This document shows positions 1,163 to 27,941 of a stretch of 64,000 bases of DNA, in pieces. Below the pieces are notes generated by a model. It saw only the letters and a program-made list of their open reading frames with translations, had not been told where the DNA came from and ran no database searches. The DNA comes from Strigamia acuminata (Eukaryota; Arthropoda; Chilopoda; Geophilomorpha; Linotaeniidae). The stretch is from NCBI GenBank assembly GCA_949358305.1, contig OX442316.1, positions 5,518,001-5,582,000 of the forward strand, read 5' to 3'. A program made the translations under genes and the position numbers. Position 1 is the first letter of the stretch, and each line of letters starts with the position of its first letter.

Positions 1163-1694
1163 TTGAATACAATTAAAATTCAGAAATGTGGCCCAAACTT
1201 GTTCATATTTTGTCCTCGCCCAGCGACAAGTTCGAGGTTGACATTCCTTGATTGTATTCGAGTGATATCAAGTTGTTTTTTTATATTTACAGTGCGAAAA
1301 TAATTAAACTTTTAAGCCTAGCATCGGTGGCATTTCCTTCCAAACCCAAATTAAATCGTCGGCCTCGGGCGGTAGGATGTCGTGCACGGGTCAACAAGTG
1401 CAAAAAGTGGGATTATAATATTTTACCACTGGAATGAAACCAACTAAACCAAATCTAACACAATTAAAAATCAGTTGTTGTTTTAAAAACAAGAATAATT
1501 AAGGAATAGCGTAGGAAATACCCGATTAAAAATACTTAAGAGACCCACGCCTCCATCGAAGGATGCAGCGCGCTTTTCCAGTCGACTTGTGTACGACTCC
1601 ATTGTTTAGTCTTTGTACACAACTGTGATGGAAACTTGAGAAGATGTTTAAGTTCAACAATCCGTCCACAGGATTTGATTAAATCACCTCCATC
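1163..1694. other. Shared 5' region of two divergent genes
   Basis: A 532-bp spacer separates the start codons of the EPB41L4-like gene (minus) and the HSD17B8-like gene (plus). Promoters and 5' UTRs of both must lie here or in unseen upstream exons. I see no TATA box I would defend. A 61-codon open frame at 1252-1437 has no recognisable homology. Confidence 0.5.
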
Positions 1695-2811
1695 ATGTTA
1701 AATGGACGGGTAGCATTAATAACAGGTTCGGTATTAATTTATTCTGTTGCAGTAGCAAATAAATTTTAATTTTTAATTAATTTCAGGTGCAGGCAGTGGC
1801 ATTGGAAGAGCCATTAGTCTGGTTTTTGCCAAGGCGAATGCTCGAATTATTGCAGCAGATATTAACGAAAATGGTGCTACGGAAACTATTAACCAAATAG
1901 GTAACAATGCGACATCAAATCCAAATTTATCAAATCTGTAAAAGTTAACTATTCTAGGCAATGCAGACGACCACATGGTAATCAAGGCGGATGTGGGTGA
2001 ACCAAATGTTGGCTCCTTATTGATATCACAAGTTAAAAACAAATATAAACAACCACCAGATATTGTAGTAAATTGTGCAGGAATTACTGCCGATAATTTC
2101 ATTAGTAACATGTCTGAAGCTGAGTTTGACAGAGTTCTGAGGATAAATGTTAAAGTACACGACGTATTAAATGCTAAAATGAGTTATTTTATACATTTTG
2201 TGGAATTATAGGGGACCTATTTGGTGATTAAAGCTGCTACAGATGCGATGATTGAACACAAAATGAAACAAGGATCCATCATTAATATTGGGAGCATAGT
2301 GGGTAAGGTTGGAAACATGGGACAAATCAATTATGCGGCTTCGAAAGCTGCCGTTGGTGGAATGACAAAAACAACAGCTAAGGAGATGGCAAAGTAAAGA
2401 TTGAAATGTTTTTAGCGGTAATGTATGTATTTTATTTGTGTTTATCAGGTTTAATATTCGTTGCAATGCAATTTTGCCTGGTTTTATTGACACTCCAATA
2501 ATTAAGAGTGTTCCTGAAAAATTAGCAAAAAAATTATTGAGAATTATTCCTTTGGGTCGACTGGGAACACCGTATGGTAAAAAAAAGAAAAATCGGGGAA
2601 ATAAAATAATTGAATGATTTGATTTTTGTTTTTTGTTTTTCATCTAGAAATCGCAGATGTTTGTTTATTTTTAGCGTCTGATCAAAGTTCATTCATAACC
2701 GGAAGTGAAATAGAAGTGACAGGTAGATTTCATGAATAAATATGAATAAAATAAGCGTAATAAATTGTATTATTTTATTATTTTTCTTATCAAGGTGGTG
2801 TTTTTATGTAA
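1695..2811 (+). CDS. HSD17B8: HSD17B8-like short-chain dehydrogenase
   Basis: Seven exons join in phase: 1695-1725, 1787-1900, 1958-2154, 2212-2393, 2449-2576, 2648-2722 and 2795-2811, giving 247 residues, a normal classical SDR length. The Rossmann nucleotide motif TGAGSGIG is at residues 10-17. The catalytic tetrad is N112, S142, Y155 and K159 (YAASK). The stretches [14 protein letters not shown] and the C-terminal EVTGGVFM are characteristic of HSD17B8/FabG-type enzymes. In animals HSD17B8 is the alpha subunit of the mitochondrial 3-oxoacyl-ACP reductase (with CBR4) and also oxidises estradiol. Introns are 55-75 bp with GT-AG ends. The exon 5 donor is at 2577, not the earlier GT at 2572, because only the later one keeps the frame (PYEIADV). 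All expected residues are present, so the gene looks functional. Confidence 0.93.
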
Positions 2812-3225
2812 AGTTTTCAAAAAATTGAAATAAAGGTAATATTTTTCATATCTGCATAGGAAGCTATTAATTTTTCTTATCCCAAAATGCAGTAAAGCGA
2901 GTTTGGGACCCTACCATGGTAGAAACGACTGTAAAAAACCGCCATCTTTGACCCTTTTCAACCCTACTCAGAAAAACATTTCAAGGAAAAAGAAAATACC
3001 AGACTTTGTCCACATCCCTATAGTCAAGCTTGACAGACTTCAAATGAGTGGAAAATTTGAATTTTAGCACGCGATTGTTTCGTCATTTACAAATGATATA
3101 TATTTTTATACATAAAACAAAGGAACATAATTGTCCTAGTCATCTCATGAGTCATAATAGACTGAAATGTAACAAATATTTCTTAAAGCAATACCATCAG
3201 TTGTGTGGAAACGACTGTACAAACT
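2812..3225. other. Spacer between HSD17B8 and the receptor array
   Basis: The spacer holds the 3' flank of the dehydrogenase gene and then sequence that recurs upstream of receptor copy 9. The recurring part starts near 3011 (ATCCCTATAGTCAAGCTTGA) and marks the left boundary of the duplicated receptor unit. Confidence 0.6.
3024..3034. promoter_or_regulatory. Array-wide upstream element, type I form
   Basis: TCAAGCTTGAC, whose first ten bases are a perfect palindrome, lies 202 bp before the ATG of copy 1. Copy 9 has the same element at 29643-29653, 201 bp before its ATG. The surrounding text is otherwise different from types II-IV, so conservation of the core suggests a binding site. This is inferred from paralogue comparison only. 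Confidence 0.5.
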
Positions 3226-4332
3226 ATGCAGCAGTATCCAAACTGCCTCAAATGGAAACTTTACCACTCAACCGATTACATTTTAACTGAAAACAAAACA
3301 TTAATTTACCTGCCTTTAAATACGACGTACACCGTCGATGAATACCGAACAAACGAAGATACTGCACTAGTTTGCATTCCGGATGATGTTCAACCACCAT
3401 TTTATTACATAGATCTACTTTACGTCACGGGATGGGTATTGTCAATCACCGCACTCATTTTTTCCACATATTTTCACTGCACATCGCGTACAACAGTTTA
3501 CGACAAACGACCGCTTGTGTGCCATATGATATGTTTATTGAGCTACTATTTATGTGATCTTGTGTTCCAAGTGGGACCCGACTACGACAGACAGACCTGT
3601 TATTTTCTAGGTATTGGTGGTCAATATGCTTTCATCGCGGCCTTTTGTTGGCTCAACGTTGTCACTTTTAATATGTGGAGAAATTTTCATGCGCAACGGA
3701 TTCTCCAGTCAAATCGTCCATCGAGATTAAAGTACACGTACCAATCACTGTACGCGTGGATGATACCAGCGTTGATTATAATCGTATCCAATTTGCTGAT
3801 TTTTGTAAAGGCTCCTGTTGCCGTTAGTTACAAGGAGAGATGTCTCGTGGATATGTACAATAACGATGCTCAAGTGTTTTTTCTGCATGGGAGTGAATGT
3901 TGCACGTTAATAGTTAATGTTGTTTTGATGACTATTACGTGTGTGAATTTGAGATCGATGAGCGCGGGGATTGCAGTGGCGAATCAACGGATTCATTCGC
4001 AGATGTAAGTTTGTTGTCGAGAATTAATTTGATTTAGTTTAATGGAAAATGTTACTCCGTGTTTCAGGTTGAGAATGTATATGAAGTTAGTATTGGTCAC
4101 TGGTTTTTGTTGGGTTATTCAAGTTGTTGAATGGGCTACACCCTTGAAACCTCGACCATCTTATTGCATTGCGCCCGATCTGTTTAACTCTCTGCAAGGA
4201 CTTATTTTGTTTCTCATTTACAATTGCAATAGTGAAGTTAAAAGCAAATTACGTCAAAATTTCTCAACCATAACTCTACGTCTCAGAGGTGGCTCTGCAA
4301 TATCACAGAGAACAGCATCAACTCACTTATAA
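3226..4332 (+). CDS. Mth-like GPCR, copy 1 (type I)
   Basis: Exons 3226-4004 and 4068-4332 join through a phase-2 intron (AT|G) into 347 residues. After a short N-terminus of about 60 residues come TM1 (DLLYVTGWVLSITALIFSTY), TM2 (LVCHMICLLSYYLCDLVF), TM3 (TCYFLGIGGQYAFIAAFCWL), TM4 (LYAWMIPALIIIVSNLLIFV), TM5 (CTLIVNVVLMTITCVNL), and in exon 2 TM6 (VLVTGFCWVIQVVEWA) and TM7 (PDLFNSLQGLILFLIYNC). The FCWLNV-F-MWR and NSLQGLILFLIYNC blocks match the Methuselah branch of class B GPCRs, plasma-membrane G-protein-coupled receptors. The N-terminus keeps only the end of the Mth ectodomain (CLKWKL ... ALVC, two cysteines, several N-x-S/T sites) and has no signal peptide. A Met seven codons upstream is in frame, but copy 9 lacks it, so the MQQYP start is preferred. 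Confidence 0.88.
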
Positions 4333-4618
4333 AATACTTATTACTTTTCATGTAATTATAATAATTTAACACTAAATATAAAGTGTAAGTACATTTTTAA
4401 GTGCTTACTTGAACAGTTAAGTGTAATTATAAGTGGTCACATGATATGCCATTGAAATAAAATCCTGGGAACAGTTTTATTCTATATTTGCTTTGTTTCA
4501 TCAAGGACTACGATATTAACTGGATATATACCGTAATACCAACAGATAATTCAGTCATAATATAACTACGACATCTTGATGCCAAAATCAAGCAGAAAAA
4601 TATCTGTGCGCCCAAACA

Positions 4619-4626
4619 TACCGGTA
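4619..4626. repeat. TACCGGTA: putative transposon footprint
   Basis: The text here reads CATA-CCGGTA-AATGCAAT, whereas the paralogous flank of copy 9 (31241-31255) reads GCATA-AATGCAAT. The six bases CCGGTA are therefore an insertion next to a TA. Excision of a TA-targeting transposon with CCG...CGG ends would leave such a mark. Confidence 0.5.
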
Positions 4627-4866
4627 AATGCAATAAAAACTTTATTTTTAGAAATAATATCAGGTGATGTGCTATTAATATTTAGTAATTGAATTTTGCA
4701 TTAAGATAATAGGCTGTAGTCACACTAGTCAATGCGTTTTTGAATTGCTGCCCATCAAAACAGTTACACTGCGCTGCAATGCTTCTCCACTAGTCATTTG
4801 AATTTTTAAAAAATCAGTGATGACGCTTTACGACTTTCTAATTTAGGAAATTCTGAGAAATCGTAG

Positions 4867-4877
4867 TCAACCTTGAC
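4867..4877. promoter_or_regulatory. Array-wide upstream element, type II form
   Basis: TCAACCTTGAC lies 266 bp before the ATG of copy 2. The same 11-mer, followed by ATCTTTTCAAACAAC or close variants, occurs at 8700, 12597, 23129, 31448, 33005, 41393 and 42534, in front of copies 4, 6, 8, 10, 11, 15a and 15. Type II copies 3, 5, 7, 13 and 14 lack it and carry a different block (near AATCCAGCCC) upstream instead. Confidence 0.5.
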
Positions 4878-5132
4878 ATCTTTTCAAACAACATAATAAA
4901 GCTATTGTCTGTTGTGAAAGTATGAATACGTAATTAAGCTTTCTCATTTGTCGTTAAATTAATTCTTGTTATAATATAATTTCCTTAAAATAAATTTGCA
5001 GGGGAAAACAAATCAAGAGGATTTAACACACAGTGACGATTCACTACAGACATCACTTAGGGAATGATTAACTTTAGTATCAGAGGCAATATTGGGTATC
5101 CGATAGAATCCGAATGAAATATCAACTGAATT

Positions 5133-6270
5133 ATGGATAAATTTTCTGAGTGCATCAAATGGAAACTAGACTTTTCAACTGACTACATTTTGACTGAAAA
5201 TGAAACCTTGATTTATCTACCGACAAATCAATCGTACAATATTGGCGAATATGCAACAAACAATCAAACCGCACTTGTTTGTGTTCCACAAGATGCTCGG
5301 CCACTGTTTTATGACATGGACCTAATTTACATAACAGCTTGGCTACTGTCAATCATTGCACTCATTTTATCCGTATACTTCCAGTCGCGAAGTGTGAGTA
5401 TGAGTAAAGTTTACGACAAACGACCTCTTTTATGCCACATGATGTGTTTGATCTGCTTCTATGTATTTGGTATTGCGTACCACCTAAAACCTAGTTTTAT
5501 TAGAAAGATGTGTTACTTTATAGGCACTTGTGGCCAGTATTCTTTCCTGTCGGCCTTTTGTTGGCTGAACGTTGTCACTTTTAATGTGTGGAGACATTTT
5601 CATCCGCAGCGGATTCTCCATTCAACACCTCGTGCGTCAAATTTCAAGTTTGCATTCCAATCGCTGTATGCTTGGTTGATGCCTGCTTTGGTTCTAATCA
5701 CGTGCAATTTGCTCGTTTTTGTAAAAGCGCCAATTGTACTTGGTTTAGATTCGTCGTGTTTTTTATCTATGTACCGCAACAACGCTCAAGTGCTGTTTCT
5801 TCAAGCCGGTGAATGTTACACATTACTAGTTAATGTTATTTTAATAATGATAACTTTCTACAATTTGAAGTCGATGAGCTCGGGAATTGAAATTGCAAAT
5901 CGGCGAATTCATTCACAAATGTAAGAATTCTTGTAATTTGGGTATTTGTGACAAGAATAATTCCAATTTATATGATAATTTACATTTTAGGTTTCGAATG
6001 TATGTCAAGTTATTATTGGTCACTGGTGTTTATTGGGTTTTTCAAATTTTGGAGTGGGTTACATCGCCTTATGTACGTAACCCAGCATACTGGACTGTAC
6101 CTGATGTCATGAACGGTCTGCAAGGAGTCATATTGTTTCTTATTTACAACTGCAATGGTAAAATTAAAGCCAAAATACGTAAACATTATTCTAACATAAT
6201 TGATCAGTTGAGGAGTTGGCTTTGTTTACAAACAAAACTCACAATCTCTCCTTCAGTTACATTGAATTGA
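5133..6270 (+). CDS. Mth-like GPCR, copy 2 (type II)
   Basis: Exons 5133-5920 and 5991-6270 give 355 residues starting MDKFSECIKWKL. An in-frame TGA six bases before the ATG in the type II leader fixes this start and rules out a coding upstream exon in the same frame. The loop between TM1 and TM2 has a three-residue insertion (SVSMSKVYDK) relative to most type II copies. The C-tail is the longer form ending QTKLTISPSV plus TLN, shared with copies 6 and 13. The paired cysteines in KMCYF (start of TM3) and SSCFLSMY (second extracellular loop) are present, as expected for a class B fold. It appears functional. Confidence 0.88.
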
Positions 6271-7137
6271 AATAATGCAATCAAAAAGAAATATACTTCG
6301 CCCTAATCATACCGGTAACTTAGTAGGTTTACTGTGAATACAGCAAACTAATATACTGTAGAAAATATTTTAGAAAAATATAATATAATAAACAAACAGC
6401 AAAAATAAAGATTAAACATTTGCAACCATTTAATTTGATGCCAAAAGATAATAATTACTTTTGAAGAGCTGCCCATCAAAACAAACACATTTCAGTGCAA
6501 TGTTCCTAATCTAGGAAAATTCAAAAATCAATCAATATTGCTCAACAATTTTCTAGGGAAATTCCCGGTTACCCGCTGAGCCAATCCAGCCCCACGACAA
6601 TACAGCAATTATCTGTTGTGAAATTACTAATAATTTATTTGCTCATTAACTCCCTGAAGAACAAAATTCGCATTACAGGGCGAGAAGAAATAAAGAGCAT
6701 AAACACAGGGGATACAGTTCCACAGATGTTTCGTAGTTATCATCTGGCTTCATTAACATTAAAAATATATGTATTAACAATTACGGTAAGCCCTCATTAT
6801 TTGTCAAGAATTTAATTACAGTAATAATAAACTGCTGGAAATAAATATCAGGGTTTGAAAAATGCACACAAGGTCAACTCAAGAAAAAACATGTCATTAG
6901 TGGTGTGACATGACTTCTGGTGACAGTAAACAAAAAGACATGTCAACTAGCATAACAAATCTTATTACATAAACTTACTTAAAAATAATTGCAGCGGGAG
7001 ATAAAAACAAGAGAATAAACACATACATTACACAAGAGACGGATCTTGTGTAGAGAGCAATTGGGAAATGATTAACATTGGTATTAGGAACAATATTGTG
7101 CATTACGACTACTCCCGATAGAAATATCAACTGAATT
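6271..7137. other. Spacer between receptor copies 2 and 3
   Basis: This is the 3' flank of copy 2 followed by the type IIb upstream module, recognisable by AATCCAGCCCCACGAC and CAATTATCTGTTGTGAAA. TACCGGTA is at 6310-6317; the equivalent place downstream of copy 6 (14030) has a one-base variant, so this footprint-like insertion predates their duplication. Confidence 0.6.
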
Positions 7138-12330: not shown

Positions 12331-12845
12331 ATAATTAATGAAGAGGAATATTGATTAGGAATGTTTCACGCTCTTAAGGTTAAAGTCACGATGTTGCCTC
12401 GGTTAGAGAGCGGCTGACTGGCCTTGTTTCAAGAAGTGTTTGATAACTCTTAGTTGGTCACTGTTACAGTTATGATAAGTTTATGATTTAAGTTAATTTT
12501 AAGTTAGTAATATTATAAACACTTAGTCTGTATGGTTGAAAAGCTTGTAAATCTAACCTTAAAACTGAGTTTGTTACACTTTGTCACAAATCGTTGTCAA
12601 CCTTGACATCTTTTCAAACAACTTAATAAAGCAATTATAAATAATTAAACTTTCTAACTTGTCGTTAATATAATTACTGTTATAATAAACTTCCTTAAAA
12701 CAATTTTCAAGGAAAACAAATCTATAGAACAAAAACACACAGCACACACCTCCAGCGACGGTTCATGTACAGACATCGTTTGAGGAATGATTAACCTTGG
12801 TATCAAGGGCAATATTGTGTATCCGATAGAAATATCAACTGAATT
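12331..12845. other. Possible LTR remnant and upstream module of copy 6
   Basis: The left part holds the possible LTR remnant described for the adjacent fragment. The right part, from about 12585, is the type IIa upstream module with the conserved element at 12597-12607. Confidence 0.4.
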
Positions 12846-13977
12846 ATGGAAAAATTTCCTGAGTGCATCAAGTGGAAACTAGACTTTTCAACTGACTATA
12901 TTTTTATTGAAAATGAAACCTTGCTTTATCTACCGACAAATCAATCGTACAGTATTGGCGAATATTCAACAAACAATCAAACCGCACTTGTTTGTGTTCC
13001 ACAAGATGCTCGAACACTGTTTTATGACATGCACCTACCGGTAATTTACATAATTGCGTGGCTATTGTCAATCATTGCACTCATTTTTTCCATTTACTTC
13101 CAATCGCGAAGTGTGAGTAATGTTTACGACAAACGACCTCTTTTATGCCACATGATGTGTTTGTTGTGCTACTATGTATTTGGTGTTGTGTACCTCCTAA
13201 CACCTATTTTTATTAGAAAGATGTGCTATTTTATAGGCACTTGTTACCTGTATTCTTTCCTGGCGGCCTTTTGTTGGCTGAACGTTGTCACTTTTAATGT
13301 GTGGAGACATTTTCATCCGCAGCGGATTCTCCATTCAACACCTCGTGCATCAAATTTCAAGTTTGCATTCCAATCGCTGTATGCTTGGTTGATGCCTGCT
13401 TTGGTTCTAATCACATGCAATTTACTCATTTTTGTAAAAGCGCCAATTGTACTTGGTTCAGATTGGTCGTGTTTTTTAACTATGTACCGCAACGACGCTC
13501 AAGTGCTATTTCTTGAAGCCAGTGAAGGTTACACAGTACTAGTTAATGTTGTTTTAATAATGATAACTTTCTACAATTTGAAGTCGATGAGCTCGGGAAT
13601 TGAAATTGCAAATCGGCGAATCCATTCACAAATGTAAGAATTTTTGTGATTTGGGTATTTGTGACAAGAATAAGTCCAATTTATATAATAATTTACATTT
13701 TAGGTTTCGAATGTATGTCAAGTTATTACTGGTCACTGGTGTTTGTTGGGTCCTTCAAATTTTGGAGTGGGTTACATCGCCTAGGTATGTACGTAACCCA
13801 GCGTACTGGATTGTACCTGAAGTCATGAATGGTCTGCAAGGAGTCATATTGTTTCTTATTTACAACTGCAATGGTGAAATTAAAGCCAAAATACGCAAAC
13901 ATTATTCTAACATAATTGGTCAGTTGAGGAGTTGGCTTTGTTTACAAACAAAACTCACAATCTCACCTTGTAACTAA
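12846..13977 (+). CDS. Mth-like GPCR, copy 6 (type II)
   Basis: Exons 12846-13633 and 13704-13977 give 353 residues. The start of TM1 carries a two-residue insertion (MHLPVIYIIAW instead of MDLIYIIAW), caused by six extra bases at 13038-13043 that make the octamer TACCGGTA. TM3 contains TCYLYSFLAAFCW, where most copies have TCGQYSFLAAFCW. Exon 2 has another small insertion (TSPRYVRNPAYW). The C-tail ends LTISPCN. The frame is open throughout, so it is probably expressed, with an altered extracellular edge of TM1. Confidence 0.85.
13036..13043. repeat. TACCGGTA footprint inside a coding exon
   Basis: Copy 6 reads CCTA-CCGGTA-ATTTACAT, while copies 2, 4 and 10 read CCTA- or CTTA-ATTTACAT. The insertion of CCGGTA at a TA keeps the frame and adds Pro-Val at the TM1 edge. 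Confidence 0.65.
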
Positions 13978-14851: not shown

Positions 14852-15188
14852 ATGGAAAAATTTGTACAGTGCATCAAATGGAAACTAGATTTTTCAACTG
14901 AATACATTTTTATTCAAAACAAAACCTTGCTTTATCTACCGACAAATCAATCGTACAATTTTGGCGAATACCCAATATTCTTTCCTGGCGGCCTTTTGTT
15001 GGCTGAACGTTGTCACTTTTAATATGTGGAGACATTTTCATCCGCAGCGGATTCTCCATTCATCTCCTCGTGCGTCAAATTTCAAGTTTGCATTCCAATC
15101 GCTGTATGCTTGGGTGATGCCTGCTTTGGTTCTAACCACATGCAATTTGCTCATTTTTGTAAAAGCGCCAATTGTACTTGGTTTAGAT

Positions 15189-15421
15189 GGCGAGGAGGAA
15201 TATTTTCGACCCGGATTCTTTGCGACCGGGATTCTTTTCGACTCGAGGTAAAGTGCGCTTTTTTTCGACTGGGATTATTTTCGACCAGGAAAATTTTCGA
15301 CCAGGAAAATTTTCGACTAGGAATTTTTTCGACTCAAACAGGATAATTTTCGACCAGGAAAATTTTCGACCAGGATTCATCTCGACCAGGATTTTTTTCG
15401 ACCGGACATTTTTCGACTTCA
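15189..15421 (+). repeat. Left inverted arm of the foldback-like transposon
   Basis: About thirteen units of the kind TTCGACCAGGA(A/T), spaced 14-18 bp and imperfectly repeated. In frame they give an artificial ORF, and the complementary strand shows another; neither is a gene. Confidence 0.85.
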
Positions 15422-15677
15422 CCAATGGTTGGGGGTTTATATACCCCAAATAATGTCACGCATTATATAACTGACGATGTCAGTATACAATACGTGACGA
15501 TGACACGTATTGCATACATGACAGGAGTAATGTGTATTGTTCAATCCAACACTATATTTTTTAATGGAAATTGCTGGAATTGTGTTTCTTGAATAAGCAT
15601 TTTTTAGAAGCAAATAATCTACTTTTGCAGCCTTCTTTATAGCATTTACTCACTAAAAGTTTATTTCTAATTGCAGA

Positions 15678-15862
15678 TTGTATTGTGCAATCCGATCTGT
15701 TTAATCGGTTACACTATCGCATCATGGAATTTCTTTAACGAGCGGATACACGAAGAAGAATTCATTCTTTTAAATTTTTTTGGTCAAGATTACGTGAAAT
15801 ATCAGAAGAACGTGCCTACTGGATTATCTTTTATATCGGGATTCAGGGTAGAGTACCAATAA
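15678..15862 (+). pseudogene. ICMT: Last exon of ICMT, orphaned
   Basis: After an acceptor (ATTGCAG) the frame reads IVLCNPICLIGYTIASWNFF and continues with NERIHEEEF, FFGQDYVKYQKNVPTGL and a stop. This is the C-terminus of protein-S-isoprenylcysteine O-methyltransferase, the ER membrane enzyme that methylates prenylated CaaX proteins such as Ras and lamins. The CNP, R-x-x-EE and FFG-x-x-Y-x-x-Y motifs of the ICMT active site are all there. The preceding exons, with the GWxYW and RHP regions, are absent between the transposon arm and this exon. It is therefore a 5'-truncated gene fragment, although the exon itself is undamaged. Confidence 0.85.
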
Positions 15863-17716
15863 GCGGACAAAAATCTTTATTTTCAATTCAATTTTTTTTT
15901 TTAATAAACAAACAAATAAATAAAAACTGTGTAAATTAATTTCAAACTTTAATTTCATCATTGGAGTCGCAAACAAGCAGAATCAAACCTATTTTTCTAC
16001 TTTTTCTTTCGACAAATGAAAAAACATCGGATTCGATTAAATTCGTGTGAAAATGCTTTTATTTCTCATTATTATAAAATTAAACTACTGTAAAATATTC
16101 TAAAAACAGTGCTGCCACAAGGCAGATGTAATTTACAAAATAATGTACAAAAATATTTTTTTTCCATTGACATTTACATTTTTCTAAATAAATAAAGAGC
16201 ACCACTAATAATAAAATTAAAAATGTTCTATAGCTGCTAAATAAACTAAGTTTGTTTAGATCGACAATATCAAAAATATAATGTGTTGTTTTTTCTTTTT
16301 GATATTGCTAATAAACGTTGTGATACGATGCTGTGAATATTACAGGATAATACTTGTTTTTGTTTTTTTTATACGGATGGGATTCGTAGGATTCGGATAG
16401 ATTCTGGGGATTCGGATGGGATTCGGAGGGGATTCGATGGGACTTGGAAAGATGCATATTATCATCACATCATTATCTTTAAAACTGAATAATAAATATG
16501 AAATTTACCGGCAGTTTTGATCAAGTTATGTAATAAAACACTCCAAAATTCAGAAATTAACACGAAAGCAAAACCTAATTCCAGCCAATAGTAAACAATA
16601 TTAAAAATACAAAAAATAAACCAAAGATATTGCTAAATTTTAATAACTGTTATGCTGGGGCATCACGTTGAAATAAAGGAGAGGTTTTTAAAGTGGAAAA
16701 CAAAACACACGTCTTTACTCGTGGGTAAAATACAAGCAAGTGAGGAGTAATACAAAATTGTCATGGTAACGCTTTTACAACAATGTAACAGTATGATATA
16801 GCAATAACACGTTCTTCAACAATGAACTCAACATTACATTAACATAACTTAACAATAACCAAAGTTAAAAAATTAAATTAAAAGCGAGGGGCGCAGGTGG
16901 GTGCAGGTCAAGCGCGCACGTGAGCGCGCAGGTCAAGGCGAGTGAAAAATTCGACGGAAAATTTGAGGGAAAATTCAATTACCGAGTCATTTAGACTTGT
17001 CAATTATTCCAGTTTTGGAAAACAAAATTATTATATTGTCTCTTGAATTAGTGACTTTTTTGATTTCTATTCAAAATTCAAATTTTAAAAGAAAAAAATA
17101 TTTCCAGAAAATTAAAATTAAATTAAATTAAAATTAAATTAAATTTAATTAATTTAAATCCCACGAAATGCATGTTTGAAACAGAAACTTGATAAAGTTT
17201 ACCACCAAAAACTTTTTCAACAACTTCCATAAAATGAAAATAAAACAACAAATGAAACAGGTGTAAATCAGCTGAATGAAGACCTCTTTATCAGGTCACA
17301 TCAAGGCCTGGGTTATTATGAGGAAGTGAGAAGCCTTGGAATCAAACATCATGACATATTCATGGCAGTGCATTTAACCAAAAAATCATTTATCAAACAT
17401 ACCGGTAATGTGGAATTAAACTTTTAAGAAAAAAAAAATCTTTTTATAATTTGTCTCATCACCTTTATGCCACAGGAAAAAAGCTAATTTCATGGTTATG
17501 TGCCCCAAGTAAAGCGAGGAACGTCGTATCTTTCTTTCTTTCTCTCTTTCTTTTATATTTTCCATTTATTTTTCTTGCATTTCCCTTCAAACACCTGTCG
17601 GGTTGACTTTGCCTAAAGGAGACTGGTGTCTCTTTACTGAATATTGGAGGAGGAACACCTGCTGCCATTTATATCACACCTCTCAAGGGTAAAGACACTT
17701 CCGGCCCCTCTTCACA

Positions 17717-17734
17717 CAGGTCACACACACACAC

Positions 17735-17792
<58 letters not shown>
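17717..17792. repeat. (CA)n microsatellite
   Basis: A CA dinucleotide tract with two CCCA interruptions near its left end. Confidence 0.95.
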
Positions 17793-18271
17793 TAAACTCT
17801 CCGACTTGCGCCACAAATTGAATTGTCAAAGTTTCATGTTTCATATTAATTTTTTTGAAGAATATTCGTCCTAGGAGTCATAAATTTCTGTGATTTTATT
17901 AGATTCACACAGGTGCAAACATTTCCCCCACCATTCCGCATAATTTCCTATAATAGAATTTCCAAATTGGTTTCTAACAAAAAAAAAACTTCTAAACGTC
18001 ATTTTTATTTGATTTATATTTATGTATTGGAGCATTTTACGCTAATCTGTTTGGCATTAAAAATTAAAAACGAATTAAAACACCGATAGTTTATTTGCTT
18101 CCATTTTGACCACCAAAGTGAATCTCATTTCATGCTCAATAAATTATGCATGGTTTCTTTTTTTAAACCAATATAAAATAGAATGGTAAAATACTGTTAA
18201 AATTTAGCGAAGAATTATCCATCGCTCCGTTGCTTAGCGACCACGTGTTTCGCAGCGAAGTCGCCCATCGG

Positions 18272-18362
18272 AATAATTTGACGCGCTATCTTTGAAATTG
18301 TTGGAAAACATGCGAAAAAACATTGTTTTCCAACAATTTCAAAGACAGCGCGTCAAATTATT
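18272..18362. repeat. Long inverted repeat (hairpin)
   Basis: Two 39-nt arms (18272-18310 and 18324-18362) are reverse complements with a single mismatch and flank a 13-nt loop. The transcript would form a very stable stem. It could be a tiny MITE or a small-RNA precursor; it matches nothing else in this window. Confidence 0.85.
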
Positions 18363-19225
18363 GTTTTCAAAACAATATCACCTTCGTTAAAATCTGATTA
18401 TTTGATGAAATAAGACTTATTTTACTTGCAAAAACTTATACATTAATTTATTGCCGTTTGTATTTGCCGTTATACAGAAGAAAATAACTGCACCAGAGCG
18501 AATAAATATTACATGTTTTTTTTAAGTACGGATCGACTTCCATTTAGCCACAAAATGCATTAAAGTTTTCGATCCAAAGTGCTCCGACTTACTAATTCTT
18601 GCAATTCCTCGCAAAAAACTTTATTTTATTTTAATTAAACTAGAATTAGCTATTTCACCGTGTCGCCATCTATCGCCAGAATAAAAAGCTCAAAAACGAG
18701 CTCGAAATTCAAATTTAGTAAACTATAATTTACTACAAACGGTTATAAAACAACGAGGAAAAATATTATGCTCTCTCCTGAGACTAAATTGGGCTAAATA
18801 TTGCATGGTTTTATTCATTTGATTTAATTTAATTGTCGTCTGCACCGACGATTTTTCAATTTGCCCCTGACCTCTCCATTTTGCACTTGCATTTTTGCTA
18901 ATTTCAAACATTTTTTTCCTCTGATTGAGCCACAAAAGTAAATGTCATTCCTTGTAAGAACACACAACTTGAGTTTGATGTGTTTTTTGAGTTGTGCAAT
19001 GCACCCAAGCCTTTCTGTGCCCCCTAAGTTTTGTGTTTTCTTCACTGAAAAACAAAGGGGTGAAAAATGGGTCAAAGTCACTGGCTAAATGTAGGGTGAG
19101 TGACCGAGTGACGCGATAAGAATTGGAGAGGAGTGCCAATCACGTGCCAAACCTTGGACCAAGGCCAAACATCATAAGTGAGAGAGCGACATTGCTAAAA
19201 CCCGTGTACCTGTGTAAAATTGACA

Positions 19226-20538
19226 ATGGCTTCACAAGATATGGATCCTGATGTTGCAAAGACTTTATTTCGCGAAGGTGTGACATTAATATTTTTAGAT
19301 GTACCACCAAAAACTGAATTTGGAATAGATCACAATACTTAGAATGTGGAAACCGATATCAAAGGTGTCAAGATGATTCCTCTGGGCATTCATTTTGTAT
19401 ATTACAGGTAATTTCGAGGTTAAAAATTTGGATTTGGATTTTGCAATGACTAATGACCACAATTTATTTTCTTTATTTCAGTGCAGTTAGTCGGGACAAC
19501 CAAATGGCACCCAGAACTGGATTTTTTCATTAATTCAATAAAGGAGAAATAGTTGTTACAAAATGGGATAAATATCTCGAAGGTTATTTTAATTAACGTT
19601 TAAATTGGTCTGTAACCTGAATTGTGTATCGTTCAATATAGATATCAAAGATGAAGTCACTTCAGATGAAGAAATAGACAGGCTTAAAGAGAATTTAAGG
19701 GAGCTTGACAAACATTTAGGCGCTTATCCATACGACAACTGGAAAAAATGGATTTTCCAGACCTACTACATGACTGGTAAGGAAAAAAATTTCGTATTTT
19801 GTAAAATATTTTATACAAAACTTATTCTCTTAGACACAGTTTTAGAACGGGTGCAGCCATTAAACAAAAAAATTTCGTCAGTTTCCCATTTAATAACTGA
19901 TGAGAGTGAATCGTCAACAAGAACAAATAAGAGACCAAAACTAGATGATTTTCTTCCGAAAATGTGTCAAAAACCCGGAACGGAAATTCGTTTTTCCAAA
20001 TTTCCTGAAAAAAGTAAGAAGAAAAAAAAGACAATTTTGATTTTAAAAAAGTAACTTAAATGTTTTGTGAAATCACAAAACAGTTTAGATTTGACCTATA
20101 CTTTAGATCAAATGCTCAAATCGTATACAGATCCTGAAGACATTCTCGGAGAACTTCAAATGGCTTTTATTTGTTTTATTTTAGGACAGGTGTACGACGC
20201 ATTTGAAGAATGGAAACATTTAATCCACTTGCTGTGCTCGTGCGACAATGCTCTTACGAAATACGCAGATTTATATTCAAAATTCATTTTTGTACTTCAT
20301 CACCAACTTCAGGAAATTCCTCGCGATTTCTTTGTAGATATTGTCAGTCGTGAAAACTTCCTCGTCAACACATTGCATTCTTTCTTCTCCAATTTGAACG
20401 GGAACCAACAAGTACCGCACGAAATTGTAGAAAAGGGTAGAAGGTTTAAAAAAATATTTAACGAAAACATTCAAGTGGGATTTTGATAGGGAAGATGATG
20501 ATGAAGCGCCTGTTGTTGTTGAAACTGAAGAAATGTGA
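19226..20538 (+). pseudogene. AAR2: AAR2 splicing-factor gene, decayed
   Basis: Exon-sized blocks at 19226-19407, 19482-19582, 19642-19776, 19834-20013 and about 20055-20538 follow AAR2 from start to end: MDPDVAKTLFREGVTLIFLD, GVKMIPLGIHF, LGAYPYDNWKKWI, PGTEIRFSKFP, DILGELQMAFICFILGQVYD, EIPRDFFVDIVSRENFL and EAPVVVETEEM. AAR2 chaperones PRPF8 during U5 snRNP assembly. Three lesions are clear: a TAG at 19340-19342 where the family has Trp, a TAA at 19531-19533, and a frameshift at about 20450-20470, after which the true C-terminus (KTFKWDF) continues in another frame. The fourth intron boundary is also unclear. Introns are kept, so it is a duplicated rather than a retroposed copy. A working AAR2 must exist elsewhere, because the gene is essential in other animals. 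Confidence 0.9.
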
Positions 20539-20788
20539 TTCGTGTGAATAAATAAAAATATTTGGTCAAAGTAATTTTTTTTGGAATTTTTTATTTATTA
20601 ATAAAAATGATGACATTGCAATTCGATTGACGAGTTTCAAAATTATCAACATCCGAAGTTAAACTCTAAACCTTCAAAGAAATTTCATTAAAAATCATGC
20701 TAATTAGACATTTTCTTTAATTATTTCACTTTATTTACAACATCGTCTGCAATTTAACCCGTAGTTTTTCTACTTTTGTCTGCTGCAA

Positions 20789-21775
20789 TCAATGAATTCG
20801 ATGGATCCTAATTAATCCTGAATTTTCACCCGAAGCCACTAATAAATGCGATCCGAAGTTTGGACTCCAAGCCACCTGAAATTAGGATTAAAATTAGATT
20901 AAAATTAGATTAAAATAATATTAATTTTTAATCTCCACTCACTTTATTAATGGATGCAATTTCAAACGAACGAAGATCAGATGAGGTCATTGTATTTGCG
21001 TGAGTTAATCGCGTAATTTCGTCCTGGGGTATTAAATTATTTGATATCTAATAAAAAATACAATTAAAATGCATGAAATCGCTAAGGAGTAATAGAATAC
21101 TCGAGAGGTAACAGAAGTAAATAAACTAAAGTACCATAAAATATTCATTTACTTCCACCAATTCAATAAAACGAGTCTCTAGATTTTTACCGGTACGTTA
21201 TCCATAAAAACTATTCCGTAATCCGTGACCGCGTCTCTTTATAAGACTCAGATGTCTTCTCTGGCGTTCGTTTGGCTGGATCGCAAGAATCGGCCGTCGA
21301 TTGATCACTTCGAACATCTTGAGCTGAATTATCTGCTGAATTTTTCGACGAATTTGTCTCTATTTTGTCACCCAGATCGGACTCTAGCGTCTTTAGATTG
21401 CAAACATTTGTTCTATAAATTGGCTGCAATTAAAAAAAATATACATTTTAATTTCAATCAATATTAACTAGAAATATATTCCTTACGAATCGTTTTCTCG
21501 ATATCCTTTTCTAATTACCAACGCCGTGCAGAAGTTGGGTCAAAACTGTGCCCACTACTTCACCATTCGAATCGCAAGTAGCCGTACAATTTAGCCAATC
21601 ATTAACGGACACTTGCTACAAAGAAAAAATGTAAACATAAATTTCAATAATAATTTAACAAGTAAGGATAAAATTACCCAAATGGAGCAGTTATGTGCTG
21701 CTATACATCACGAGCCATTACCGAAATAGCCCTTCTCCACAAACCTTAGATTCGTTCGCCATAAACTAAAAACAA
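20789..21775 (-). pseudogene. 3' part of a WD-repeat gene, GTF3C2-like
   Basis: On the minus strand the last two exons are clean: 21047-20943 (ISNNLIPQDEITRLTHANTM and on) and 20875-20789 (VAWSPNFGSHLLVASGENSG, then LIRIHRIH and a stop). The first exon has an intact GT donor. The C-terminal WD-type sequence ending SGLIRI resembles TFIIIC subunit 2 (GTF3C2/TFIIIC110), though I hold that name loosely. Further up, pieces read PIYRTNVCNLKTLESDLGDK, AVTDYGIVFMDNVP (in a different frame from the preceding piece) and DWLNCTATCDSNGEVVGTV. An AAHNCSIW block near 21690 is one base out of frame. The 5' exons are missing: the transposon arm starts at about 21868. The piece is 5'-truncated and frameshifted. 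Confidence 0.6.
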
Positions 21776-21867
21776 AATTTTGGTTCAAATATGTACCGAT
21801 GAAAGAAAATATAAAAATGAATAAATTTGACACGTTACAAGTCCATTTATAAAAGTAAACTACCTAA

Positions 21868-22120
21868 ATTTCGACCAAGTCGAAAGGAATCCTGGTCGAA
21901 GTGAATCCCGGTCGAGATAAATCCTGGTCGCAAAGAATCCTAGTCGATAAAATTCCAGGTCGCAATCCAACCGGTCGAAAAGAATCCTGGTCGCAAACAA
22001 TCCTGATCGGAAACAATCCTGGTCGCAAACAATCCGGTCGAGAAAAATCCGGTCGCAAAAAATCCGGTCGAAAAAAAACGCGGTCGAAAGGAATCCGAGT
22101 CGAAAATATTCTACCCTGCC
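21868..22120 (-). repeat. Right inverted arm of the foldback-like transposon
   Basis: Imperfect units of GGTCGAAA/GGTCGCAA with AATCC(T/C), the complement of the left-arm units. The outermost 39 bases match the left end at roughly five of six positions. Confidence 0.85.
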
Positions 22121-22663
22121 GTTTAGATTCGTCGTGTTTTTTATCTATGTACCGCAACTACGCTCAAGTGCTGTTTCTTCAAGCCGGTGAATTTTACACA
22201 TTACTAGTTAATGTTGTTTTAATAATGATTACTTTCTACAATTTGAAGTCAATGAGTTCGGGAATTGCAATGGCAAATCAACAAATTCATTCGCAAATGT
22301 AGGAATTTTAGTTATTTATGACAAGAATAATTTCAAATATTTGATCATTTACTTTTTAGGCTCCGAATGTATGTGAAGTTATTACTGGTTACCGGTGTTT
22401 GTTGGGTTTTTGAAGTTTTGGAGTGGGTTACTTTCCCTTATAGACACAACTCATATCAACATACTGGTGTGTACCTGAAGTTTTAAACAGTCTGCAAGGA
22501 GTCATATTGTTTCTTATTTACAACTGCAATTGTGAAATGAAAGCTAAAACACATAAACATTATTGTGACATAATTGAACGGTTGAGGAGTTGGCTTTGTT
22601 TTTAAAAAAAACTCACAATCTCCTTACACTAATTAGGTTTTGAATTATAATAATAGATCGGAA

Positions 22664-23154: not shown

Positions 23155-26100
23155 TGTTGTTTATTGAATGTTATATTCCTGTCCGCCAGGTGTCTTTGTC
23201 ACCTGTGCACCTGTCCCTGGCACTGACCAATCAGTGACCTGTTCTGTATTTTGTGCTCCGCGCACTTTTAAACATCTGTTTTAGATTAAAACCATCTCTG
23301 TTAATATTTCACCAAAAAACCACGCGTCTCCAATTTTATGCCTCCAACATATTAGAACTAAAACTACAGGTTATGGGCCCAGCACGCTTCCACTGCGCTT
23401 AAAAATCATCAAGTTTTGTACCGGAACATTCGAGGAAGTTAAAAACGAATTTAACACGAACATTCCACAAGAAACAGAACTAAGAAACGATGGCGAACAG
23501 CGGCGGAAATTCAGCTCGAATCGAGGCGTTGGGAAAGGAAAACTTCGACACATGGAAGATCCAGATGGAAGCAATTTTGGATCAACGGGACCTACTCGTG
23601 CACGCGGAAGGTACGTCGAAACGACCAGAAACCATCGAAGGAAACGCGAAACGTATGAAGGAGATCGAAACGTGGGAGAAAAGTGATCGAACAGCCAAAA
23701 ATGACATTTTGCTAAATATAAAACAATCGGAACTTCGAATGGCTAAAAATTGCAACACCGCGAACGAATTGTGGAGGAAGCTGCATAGTGTGTACCAATC
23801 GAAAGGACCGGCAAGAAAAATCACGTTGTTAAAACGACTCGCAACACACAAGATGGCGGACGGAGAAAACGTGGAGAACCACTTAAAAGAATTCTTCGAG
23901 CTGGTGGATAAGCTACTAGACATGGATTTCAAGATGCCCGAAGACTTCACAACGATCTTACTGCTACTAAGCCTGCCGAACTCTTACGACAACTTCAGAT
24001 GCGCAATAGAATCGCAAGATAAATTGCCCTCGCTGGAAGTTTTGGAGGGAAAGATCAAAGACGAGTCCATCGCCCGCGGAAAAGGGAAAGAAGACGTATC
24101 GGACGCCATGATGGCCAGAAAAACGTTCCAAAAACGTAAGCAACCAAAGAAATACGGCGACGAAAATTCGAATTCGACCGAGAAGCCAGCTTTTAAATAC
24201 AAGTGTCACGGTTGCGGAAAAATTGGCCACAAAATCGCCGATTGCCGAAGTAAAAGCAAGAAGGAAAGCGCATCAAGAACCGAGAAATCCAAGTACGAAT
24301 TATTTTTCTGCGAGCAAATCGAGACAGCACTGATAAGCGAGAAGTCACGACCGAAAAATTGGTGTTTGGACAGCGGCGCAAGTTCCCACATGTGCTCGAA
24401 CGATTCAACATTTTCGACGATCGAATTGCTGAAAAACCAGAAGCTGAATTTGGCCAGCAAGGCGAGCACGAAAATCGACGGAAAAGGAACCGCGAAAATC
24501 GTCGTCAAGACTGGGGACGGAAATATGAAGTTGGATTTGGCAGAGACTCTTTTGGTACGAGATTTGCGAACGAATTTGATGTCAGTCGGGAAAATCACGG
24601 AACGAGGCCACAAAGTAATTTTCGACGATAAATCAGGAACAGTAATAAATTCGAAGGGAGAAATCGTACTCACCGCCGAAAAAAGAAATGGATTGTATTA
24701 CATCGTCGACGAGACCGAGGATGCTGCGACTGCAGCGGAAATTGAAGTCGGAACCGGATCAAAACCTGCAAAACCCGCAAGTACGAAAATACAAGAATGG
24801 CACAAAAGACTTGGGCACCTGAACGAGTCAAGTCTGAAAATACTAAACGAAAAGGCGGACGGAATGAATTTGGAAAAGGACGCCAAGCTGCCAACTTGTG
24901 AAACTTGTATCGAGGGGAAGCACGCAAGTACGAAATTTCCTGACTCCACGTCAAAAAGCAAAAAACTGCTGGAACTTGTACACTCGGACGTTTGCGGACC
25001 AATGCCAACAAGGTCCATGAATGGATCGAGGTATTTCGTGACGTTTACCGACGATAAATCGAGATGGTGCAAGGTGTACTTTTTGAAACACAAAAGTGAA
25101 GTTTTCGAGGCATTCAAGTCGTTTAAAACTTTTTGCGAGAAGGAAACTGGATGCGCGCTCAAAGTTTTACGATCGGACAACGGGAAAGAATATGTAAATA
25201 AGAAATTCGACGCATATTTACAAGAAAACGGCATAAAGCGCCAAACCAGCGTCGAACGAACCCCGGAACAAAATGGCGTCTCGGAAAGAATGAATAGAAC
25301 TTTGATCGAGATGGCACGATGCATGTTACTGCAAGCAAAATTGCCCAACACGTACTGGGCGGAAGCAATCAACACTGCATGCCACATCCGAAATAAATGC
25401 CCAACTAGAAGTTTAGAAAATGAAATCCCGCATCAAGTTTGGACCGGAAGAAAACCAAATGTCGACTATTTTCGAGTTTTCGGGAGCAGAGTCTTCGCGT
25501 TGGACAAGAAACCAAACAAGGGGAAGTTCGAACCGAAGTCAAAAGAATGTATTCTCATCGGATATTGGGACGGATCGAAGGCGTATCGTTTATGGTCGAA
25601 AAGCGAAAATAAGATTATAAAAAGTCGAGACGTGAAATTTGTCGAAAAATCAAAAAATGAGACGAATGAAGAATGTGGAGAAGACGATAATAATAATTTT
25701 AATAATGATTTCACCGATTCCAGAACAGATCCAGACGAAAACAGAACCGAAAATTCCGAAGATGAAATAGAGAACGCAAACGAGAACGAACCCAACAATG
25801 CAGCCGAGCCCGACAATGAGAACGAGAGAGAGACGCAACACGAAGAAGCCGAACCTCGTCAAAATGAAAACACGAAAACGATTCCACGACGATCCGCTAG
25901 AACACCAAAACCTTATCCAAACCGAAATGGGGACCCACCCAGAAAGAAATATACAAGAAAGAATCTGACAACAACTAATGAAGTTTTGGACGAAATTGCA
26001 CAGATAGCAATTCTCGACGATCCAACAACAGCGGCCGAAGCTTTGAATGGAAATGACCCACAAGAATGGATGAAAGCGATGAAGGACGAATACGACGCTT

Positions 26101-27941
26101 TAATTGAAAACGAAACGTGGGAGGAGTGCGACCGACCGAAAAATAGAAACGTAATCGGATGTAGATGGGTCCTCCGCACAAAATTTGAAGCAGACGGGTC
26201 AATCGAACGCAGAAAGGCCCGACTGGTCGCCAAAGGATATGCACAGCAGCCAGGCATCGACTACTTTGAAACCTACGCGCCCGTCGCACGACCGGGATCA
26301 ATTCGAATGATGATGGCAATCGCAGCCGAGTTGGGATTGACCGTACACCAAATGGACGCGATAACGGCATATTTGAACGGCGAAATCGAAGAGGAAATTT
26401 TTATGGAATTCCCCGAATATTTGGAATTTATTGCTGGAATAAAAATCAAGAAAGGAAAAGTCTGCCGGATGAAAAAGGCGTTATACGGATTGAAGCAGTC
26501 GGGTCGCCAGTGGTACAAAAAACTGGACGAGAAGTTGCAAAAGCACGGACTGAAGCCAACAAACGCAGACCCATGCGTGTATTACCAGACGAATGGAGAA
26601 GTCATCACGCTCGTCGCAATCTACGTGGATGATTTTATCATCGCAACGAACTGCAAAAGAAACCTGGAGAAAATAAAATCGAACCTGAAGAGCGAGTTCA
26701 AAATGAAGGATTTAGGACAAATTCACTACTGTTTGGGAATCGAGTTTAAACAGGACGAAAAGACGAAATCAATCACGATGGCGCAGAAAAAATACGTTAA
26801 GGACATACTGAATCGTTTCGGAATGCAAGACTGCTCGAAAAACACAACTCCACTCGACGCAAATCAGAAATTGCAGAAAAACAAGAAAAAGGAGGATGGG
26901 ACCGACGAAGAGCTACTGGATCCGGAAAAGTTCCCGTACCAAAGTTTAATCGGATCACTCATGTACCTCGCCGTTTGCACTCGACCCGATATTTCCTACA
27001 CCGTCAGCGCATTAAGTCAATATAATTCGTGTTTCACCGGAACTCATTGGACAGCAGCAAAACGCGTCCTAAGATATTTGAAGCATTCATCGAATCTCGG
27101 GCTAAAATTCGAAAAGACCGGAAAAGACTTAGTCGGCTACACGGATGCAGATTGGGGAGCAAACTTGGACGACCGTCGCTCGTACACCGGCTACTGCTTT
27201 AAACTCGCGAACGCGACAATATGCTGGGAAGCAAGAAAGCAGAAGACCGTCGCAACCTCGTCGACCGAAGCAGAATATATGGCGTTGGCCGACGCGTCAA
27301 AAGAAGCAATCTACTTGCGAAACTTCCTAGACGAAATTAAATACATCAACAAGAAGAAAGAAACGACCCTCATTTATAGCGATAATCAGGGGGCACACAA
27401 ATTGGTGCGAAACCCAATTTTCCATTCCAGGACCAAGCACATCGATATTCGCCACCATTTCGTTCGAGAAACATATGAGCGGGGAGATATCAACATAGAA
27501 TTCCTGGAGAGTGAGAAGATGGTCGCCGATGTGTTGACCAAGGGGCTTTTTAAGCCAAAACACGAAGAATTGATCGCCCAATTTGGATTGAAGGAAATTG
27601 TTTAAGAAATATTGTTTTTTAATATTTGAATTGTTTGTGAATGAATACTTTAATGTTTAAATGTCTAAATTGCTTAAGAAAAATGTTTTGAATTTTGAAA
27701 TGTAGGAATATTTCCATTCAGGGGAAGTGTTGTTTATTGAATGTTATATTCCTGTCCGCCAGGTGTCTTTGTCACCTGTGCACCTGTCCCTGGCACTGAC
27801 CAATCAGTGACCTGTTCTGTATTTTGTGCTCCGCGCACTTTTAAACATCTGTTTTAGATTAAAACCATCTCTGTTAATATTTCACCAAAAAACCACGCGT
27901 CTCCAATTTTATGCCTCCAACATATTAGAACTAAAACTACA
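23155..27941 (+). mobile_element. Complete Ty1/copia element (copia-1)
   Basis: Two 214-bp LTRs (23155-23368 and 27728-27941) start TGTTG and end CTACA and look identical by eye. The element is bounded by the 5-bp duplication ACAAC (23150-23154 and 27942-27946). The primer-binding site directly after the left LTR, GGTTATGGGCCCAGCACGC, matches the anticodon-arm region of initiator tRNA-Met, the unusual priming also used by Drosophila copia. A purine tract (AGGGGAAG) precedes the right LTR. Without the insert, the flanks restore the type IIa promoter sequence CAAACAACTTAATAAAGC. Identical LTRs and an open gag-pol indicate a recent insertion. Confidence 0.97.
23490..27605 (+). CDS. copia-1 Gag-Pol polyprotein
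   Basis: A single 1,371-residue frame. In order: Gag with one CCHC knuckle (CHGCGKIGHKIADC, about residues 239-252), aspartic protease (WCLDSGASSHMC, about 290), integrase with the HHCC finger (HKRLGHLN ... CETC) and DDE core (HSDVCGP, LRSDNGKEY, PEQNGVSERMN), reverse transcriptase (catalytic YVDDFI at about 1045) and RNase H (YTDADWG, SSTEAEYMAL). The integrase-before-RT order defines Ty1/copia. No frameshift or stop is present, so it is potentially active. GC content is visibly higher than in the surrounding receptor genes. Confidence 0.97.
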   Translation: MANSGGNSARIEALGKENFDTWKIQMEAILDQRDLLVHAEGTSKRPETIEGNAKRMKEIETWEKSDRTAKNDILLNIKQSELRMAKNCNTANELWRKLHSVYQSKGPARKITLLKRLATHKMADGENVENHLKEFFELVDKLLDMDFKMPEDFTTILLLLSLPNSYDNFRCAIESQDKLPSLEVLEGKIKDESIARGKGKEDVSDAMMARKTFQKRKQPKKYGDENSNSTEKPAFKYKCHGCGKIGHKIADCRSKSKKESASRTEKSKYELFFCEQIETALISEKSRPKNWCLDSGASSHMCSNDSTFSTIELLKNQKLNLASKASTKIDGKGTAKIVVKTGDGNMKLDLAETLLVRDLRTNLMSVGKITERGHKVIFDDKSGTVINSKGEIVLTAEKRNGLYYIVDETEDAATAAEIEVGTGSKPAKPASTKIQEWHKRLGHLNESSLKILNEKADGMNLEKDAKLPTCETCIEGKHASTKFPDSTSKSKKLLELVHSDVCGPMPTRSMNGSRYFVTFTDDKSRWCKVYFLKHKSEVFEAFKSFKTFCEKETGCALKVLRSDNGKEYVNKKFDAYLQENGIKRQTSVERTPEQNGVSERMNRTLIEMARCMLLQAKLPNTYWAEAINTACHIRNKCPTRSLENEIPHQVWTGRKPNVDYFRVFGSRVFALDKKPNKGKFEPKSKECILIGYWDGSKAYRLWSKSENKIIKSRDVKFVEKSKNETNEECGEDDNNNFNNDFTDSRTDPDENRTENSEDEIENANENEPNNAAEPDNENERETQHEEAEPRQNENTKTIPRRSARTPKPYPNRNGDPPRKKYTRKNLTTTNEVLDEIAQIAILDDPTTAAEALNGNDPQEWMKAMKDEYDALIENETWEECDRPKNRNVIGCRWVLRTKFEADGSIERRKARLVAKGYAQQPGIDYFETYAPVARPGSIRMMMAIAAELGLTVHQMDAITAYLNGEIEEEIFMEFPEYLEFIAGIKIKKGKVCRMKKALYGLKQSGRQWYKKLDEKLQKHGLKPTNADPCVYYQTNGEVITLVAIYVDDFIIATNCKRNLEKIKSNLKSEFKMKDLGQIHYCLGIEFKQDEKTKSITMAQKKYVKDILNRFGMQDCSKNTTPLDANQKLQKNKKKEDGTDEELLDPEKFPYQSLIGSLMYLAVCTRPDISYTVSALSQYNSCFTGTHWTAAKRVLRYLKHSSNLGLKFEKTGKDLVGYTDADWGANLDDRRSYTGYCFKLANATICWEARKQKTVATSSTEAEYMALADASKEAIYLRNFLDEIKYINKKKETTLIYSDNQGAHKLVRNPIFHSRTKHIDIRHHFVRETYERGDINIEFLESEKMVADVLTKGLFKPKHEELIAQFGLKEIV

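Follow-up and report, generated by a model that had tools for sequence, protein, structure and literature searches.

How does a transposon in a centipede come to carry parts of several host genes, and where did those parts come from? The locus that raises this question lies in a 64,000-nucleotide stretch of Strigamia acuminata DNA (assembly GCA_949358305.1, contig OX442316.1; C4:5518001-5582000, here called the window and numbered from its first base), in which a 6,932-bp element at 15189-22120 interrupts a host exon and contains sequence of ICMT, AAR2 and a WD-repeat gene. The original prediction took it for a Foldback-like non-autonomous transposon whose two arms had together moved the three genes as one contiguous block. 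The arms, the other copies and the captured segments described below bear out a Foldback-like, non-autonomous transposon with host genes, but the block itself does not survive comparison with the genome. With a probability of about 0.88, we read the element instead as a multi-source Pack-MULE, that is, a non-autonomous Mutator-like element (MULE), with Foldback-type arms, that gained its segments separately and was recently amplified in a burst in which a MULE transposase mobilised it in trans. Such elements are chiefly familiar from plants.

Structure and insertion site of the element

The coordinates of the element are exact, and it is bounded by two perfect copies of an 8-bp target site duplication (TSD), GTTTAGAT, at 15181-15188 and 22121-22128, the same direct repeats that had first drawn attention to it. 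The left arm (15189-15428, plus strand) begins with the terminal GGCGAGGAGGAATATTTTCGAC and continues as ~16-bp TCGACC units in tandem; the right arm (21877-22120, minus strand) has the terminal GGCAGGGTAGAATATTTTCGAC, read on the minus strand, followed by ~16-bp units in tandem. The predicted inverted arms of TCGACC units are confirmed by Tandem Repeats Finder, which places arrays at 15203-15242, 15262-15417 and 21879-22106, and by the count of the unit core TTTCGACCNGGA (at most one mismatch), which occurs 16 times in the window, every time within the arms; in 100 shuffles the average count was 0.66. Each arm is ~240 bp, and arm-to-arm stretches are 39-75 bp long and 71-83% complementary (25 longest of 79 pairs). 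Long terminal inverted repeats (TIRs), as expected of a MULE, are present, the two termini being imperfect mirror images, and their construction from short tandem repeats is that of Foldback elements. The 22-bp left terminus was found exactly at 24 places in the genome, searched throughout as 237,517,015 bases in 157 contigs.

The insertion splits a plus-strand host exon, whose left half lies at 15023-15188 and whose right half lies at 22121-22300. When the flanks are joined without one copy of the TSD, they form an open exon resembling the uninterrupted tandem paralogue at 12843-13637. The exon was thus cleanly interrupted, as had been claimed; the name of receptor given to it is not borne out here, as a search with the paralogue gave no match to a Pfam family (E up to 0.01) or a PDB chain.

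A mosaic of host segments

The interior is a mosaic of nested repeats and of copies whose sources are four or more host places, spread over three chromosomes. Positions in the element (el) are counted from window 15189. The ICMT segment at 15585-16374 (el 397-1186, plus strand) consists of the end of the last intron, the last exon (15677-15862) and 3' flank, and differs from its parental locus at C1:11.046 Mb by 3.57% substitutions over 785 aligned sites. Its exon is identified by Pfam PF04140, in agreement with the original assignment at the left edge, and an exon of the parental gene matches a solved ICMT structure (2.9e-18). A second stretch, at 17050-18171 (el 1862-2983, minus strand), is an antisense copy of a gene region at C4:11.049-11.051 Mb that aligns in three pieces with 7.5, 2.7 and 4.0% substitutions and lacks ~0.88 kb of its source. 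Exact splicing was considered as the cause of this gap, but the junction has no GT on the donor side, which makes a deletion or switch the likelier origin.

AAR2 occupies 19204-20618 (el 4016-5430, plus strand) and differs from its parent at C3:28.566 Mb by 4.53% over 1414 aligned sites. Pfam PF05282 and PF20981 confirm its identity, and the parental protein is 90% identical to Strigamia maritima AAR2 over its full length. The copy had been described as whole, and it is nearly so, with its introns kept; it is also dead, carrying in-frame stops at 19340-19342 and 19531-19533 and a frameshift near 20448 relative to the parental gene, and lacking ~28 bases at the start of one exon. The WD-repeat gene predicted in part at the right edge is read as the 3' part of GTF3C2, a TFIIIC subunit, at 20617-21778 (el 5429-6590, minus strand), again with introns, and 4.70% diverged from C4:12.110 Mb over 1149 aligned sites. 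Its name comes from an exon of the parental locus beyond the captured part, which matches PDB 8cli, General transcription factor 3C polypeptide 2 (E=1.8e-10), on the reading that the parental exons belong to one gene; the sole WD40 match falls under the Pfam cut-off. The copies of ICMT, AAR2 and GTF3C2 retain introns and therefore derive from DNA. A non-autonomous MULE with copies of host genes is what defines a Pack-MULE, and these three segments supply them. The arms are absent from the parental stretches that we fetched (10.0, 4.6, 7.0 and 3.3 kb).

The parental loci decide the fate of the contiguous block. That both outer genes are cut on the side facing an arm speaks for one captured piece, as does a WD-like gene that, on our reading of open reading frames (ORFs), lies within 4 kb of parental AAR2, in a neighbourhood that we take to comprise a WDR61-like gene, a leucine-rich repeat gene, a tetraspanin and a CDC16-like TPR gene. 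However, the best matches of ICMT, AAR2 and the WD gene outside the element fall on C1, C3 and C4 (11.05, 28.57 and 12.11 Mb, the fourth stretch coming from C4:11.05 Mb), so the search for an intact neighbourhood of the three found parents on three chromosomes, where genes carried by a composite transposon would be neighbours at their source. When the whole element was compared by BLAST with the 10-kb parental AAR2 stretch, AAR2 alone matched and the nearby WD-like gene did not. In the element, AAR2 and GTF3C2, from two chromosomes, are joined at a 2-bp microhomology, TG, with no intergenic DNA between them. As far as these comparisons reach, contiguous capture is already refuted in the present genome, and we give it next to no credence.

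A recent burst of one chimera

The element has moved and is multicopy. Its left arm matches at least 45 places (40 of 114 candidates were scored), and 14 of these matches, the window's own among them, are 100% identical over 252 bases. Fourteen near-identical young copies, spread over six contigs, share this chimera, and so does an older, interrupted one at C8:11.350-11.369 Mb, which is 92-99% identical by segment. The insertions with the same ends and 8-bp TSDs that the prediction called for are thus at hand: 11 of the 15 copies have exact 8-bp TSDs, all different, one (L020) has a single mismatch, and three have none. One chimera moving as a unit to several sites with different TSDs is the behaviour of a Pack-MULE, and duplications of 8 bp whose sequence differs by site agree with the ~8-11 bp and lack of a fixed target of MULEs.

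Twelve of the 14 young copies are uninterrupted, L011 and L020 holding extra sequence. Among the twelve, five columns vary by a single base and the CA repeat by one 4-bp step, with a mean of 1.24 substitutions per pair over 6,932 bp. At a substitution rate near 3e-9 per site and generation, the burst would date back some tens of thousands of generations. While the twelve copies differ by ~1.2 bases in 6,932, their host-derived parts are 2.7-7.5% diverged from the parents.

Such near-identity could also arise if a single locus had been misassembled or duplicated many times, and three diverged arm copies on C12 (L046-L048), which have one common flank, do look segmentally duplicated; from that shared flank, some C12 members are segmental duplicates. 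Yet the 14 young copies are spread over six contigs and differ in their flanks, their TSDs vary by site, and the published S. acuminata assembly is described as based on 98-fold HiFi reads. An artefact or segmental duplication as the general explanation is exceedingly improbable.

A candidate transposase

The prediction held that an autonomous partner must exist or have existed, and a plausible candidate is a 16,649-bp relative on C4 with similar ends and an 8-bp TSD, CATTGCAC. It encodes FLYWCH and MULE exons that splice into an open 539-aa model at C4:7.731 Mb, with PF10551 at E=1.5e-10 in the element (L026) and 4.4e-12 in the spliced model, so that a family member with ends of this type encodes a DDE transposase of MULE type. 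The left arm of this element is 91% identical to that of the window element in a 254-column alignment. From the shared ends, we infer that its transposase may mobilise the 6.9-kb element in trans. The next-best of 57 genome matches to the transposase are partial (49-89%), and most contain stops. Among 7,995 database candidates scored there were four matches, the best, from the mealybug Planococcus citri, being 28% identical.

Larger relatives and the order of events

Three larger relatives were tested, on C5 (9,172 bp), C11 (11,621 bp) and C4 (the 16,649-bp element), and all three have their own 8-bp TSDs; several registers matched, and the one at the element termini was used. A subterminal stretch of the window element (15429-15584, plus strand) is common to larger family members, L023, L025 and L027 aligning through it. 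The ICMT piece has 27 matches, which lie in the 14 young copies, in further members of the family and at the parental locus, and is therefore old within the family. GTF3C2 sequence was located in the 6.9-kb subfamily, at the parental locus and at five partial places.

AAR2 also bears on the order of events. The copy in relative L038 has one premature stop in common with the 6.9-kb element, and the two deviate alike from the parental gene at 20 of 968 comparable sites (without outgroup polarisation), against 18 sites at which the element alone differs and 25 at which L038 alone does. Given the shared stop and shared differences, a single capture of AAR2, which had decayed by the time the subfamilies diverged, is most likely, and by the same stop its capture and decay would precede the burst. 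Two independent captures, at which the lower raw identities of the relatives had hinted, were set aside on the evidence of a gap-free comparison and the shared stop. In L025 and L038 the AAR2 piece lies in the opposite orientation relative to ICMT, and family members have therefore undergone internal rearrangement.

These relatives also bear on whether the captures took place here at all. The same Pack-MULE might have acquired its genes in a sister lineage, the compact element then entering recently by introgression or horizontal transfer and bursting; the burst is very young, and most captured segments are similarly diverged from the resident genes (2.7-4.7%, with one sub-segment at 7.5%), as this would predict. 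This genome nonetheless contains diverged relatives, several of them on C12, that have these ICMT and AAR2 captures and the shared AAR2 stop, and it also contains the older copy of the 6.9-kb form. We consider such an entry unlikely.

Under the multi-source Pack-MULE reading, an ancestral element would have picked up host segments through template switches in the course of repair or replication, AAR2 would have been captured once and then died, and a MULE transposase would later have mobilised a compact 6.9-kb derivative in trans. In this recent burst, one copy landed in the exon in the window. Template switching is proposed because it fits the 2-bp microhomology at the one scorable junction, the interchromosomal sources and the later amplification; we infer that it may have acted in or beside the repetitive arms, by FoSTeST or gap filling as put forward by Tan et al. 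(PMC8277862).

Several observations weigh against this reading. The junction of AAR2 and GTF3C2 is the only one with both sources known, the other six boundaries not being scorable for microhomology, and 18172-19203 traced to dispersed repeats only. Three young, full-length copies (L010, L012, L021) have no matching TSD, as if their flanks had been deleted or exchanged; recombination between copies is unproven as their origin, since the left 8-mer of one never equals the right 8-mer of another, and flank deletion is equally possible. The spliced 539-aa transposase is our own predicted gene model, in which FLYWCH scores 23.3 bits against a cut-off of 23.6, although it is above the cut-off in the single exon, and no second full-length close copy was found among the 57 genome matches. 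The genome also has more distant MULE families, ~27-42% identical, whose open frames reach 773 aa, and the mobiliser could be another transposase than that of the C4 element.

The larger relatives share a further possible product of capture, a 172-aa chimeric ORF (L027:4154-4669, at C4:7723853-7724368, with the same ORF at C11, C3 and C5). The opening 114 bp derive from the C4:11.05 Mb locus, and the remainder matches, without introns, three separate exons in a cluster of tandem genes at C8:8.82-8.97 Mb. The junctions fit splicing only within a few bases (two cluster members compared), and spliced or retrocopied sequence may have been captured. It is a doubtful step from there to a long-lived multi-locus gene shuffler that builds new ORFs, fed by cDNA or spliced copies, with the 172-aa ORF as an expressed new gene.

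Comparison with known systems

The centipede element is a known kind, a Pack-MULE, in an unexpected host, and not a new kind. Plant Pack-MULEs are non-autonomous MULEs with gene fragments; in the parts of the reports drawn on here, about one-fifth of those in rice use several loci, and most are 1-2 kb, with none above a 7-kb element (PMC12030055, PMC6431247). TSDs in plants are given as 9-11 bp (PMC3310237). The centipede element, in contrast, is 6.9 kb long, sits in an animal with relatives of 9-17 kb, and has TSDs of 8 bp.

Among animals, our search of the open-licence PMC literature found one Pack-MULE, Ssk-FB4 of Drosophila melanogaster populations, and one animal-genome survey. Ssk-FB4 is described as non-autonomous, with MULE/Foldback-type arms and one nearly whole host gene, and it resembles the centipede element in its repetitive arms, multiple copies with distinct TSDs, near-whole gene and 2-bp junction microhomology (PMC8277862). 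As reported there, it has one parental gene and three loci, including one tandem duplicate, TSDs of 9-10 bp and an expressed, apparently functional gene (PMC8277862), whereas the centipede element has at least four sources, 14 young copies, an 8-bp TSD and a dead AAR2. The survey, of 2021 and described in the same article, found zero Pack-MULEs in 100 animal reference genomes with filters for an interior of 100-5,000 bp and a length of 80-120% of the parental copy (PMC8277862); by our reading, these would miss a multi-source element such as the centipede's, which suggests that more animal Pack-MULEs would come to light if the filters allowed for several sources.

The same arm style is seen in Tm1, a Mutator/Foldback family of root-knot nematodes with composite Foldback-like TIRs and TSDs of 8-10 bp in 45 of 53 complete elements, a range that includes the 8 bp seen here (PMC3169594). 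Tm1 is reported to have groups with and without transposase and a possible acquisition of host motifs; its cargo in that account is a conserved histone-hairpin motif and not, as here, several host genes with parental loci (PMC3169594). A 2026 survey of arthropod MULEs gives lengths of 1.4-10.0 kb and includes a Geophilomorpha entry (7207, 1061 and 136-141), which we take as length, transposase amino acids and TIR (PMC13359780). The elements in the part of that survey used here, at up to 10.0 kb, are shorter than the 16.6-kb centipede element with its spliced 539-aa model. Four parental places, readable junctions, a nearly fresh amplification and a candidate transposase come together in one genome, and the case makes gene capture by TIR elements in animals concretely testable.

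Other features

Two repeats are nested in the element. A 207-bp solo long terminal repeat (TG...CA; 16648-16854, plus strand) has a 5-bp TSD, ATAAC, and is missing from relative L037, which keeps the empty site. A palindrome at 18272-18362 has 39-bp arms that are 97% complementary; sequences related to it lie at C1:25.33 and C1:24.90 Mb. An Rfam scan of 15000-22400 gave zero matches, as did an NCBIfam search with three exons.

Relative L037 has ICMT segments near both ends, as if the captured piece had joined the inverted repeat. Two large relatives, L024 (C11) and L028 (C3), apparently share a copia-like insertion, identically placed in their interiors, and probably moved after it had landed. 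Family members are concentrated on C12, presumably the X chromosome: of the 45 arm matches listed, 11 fall there, a young copy among them, although C12 makes up ~4% of the genome. At C1:25915649-25946381, two facing arm matches lie 30.7 kb apart, with one clear end found; as one element, the pair would be far above the arthropod MULE sizes given in the 2026 survey (PMC13359780). In the window, an open frame of 1,373 aa runs from 23484 to 27605 on the plus strand, at a distance of 1.4 kb from the element. This frame is presumably of the Ty1/copia-like type.

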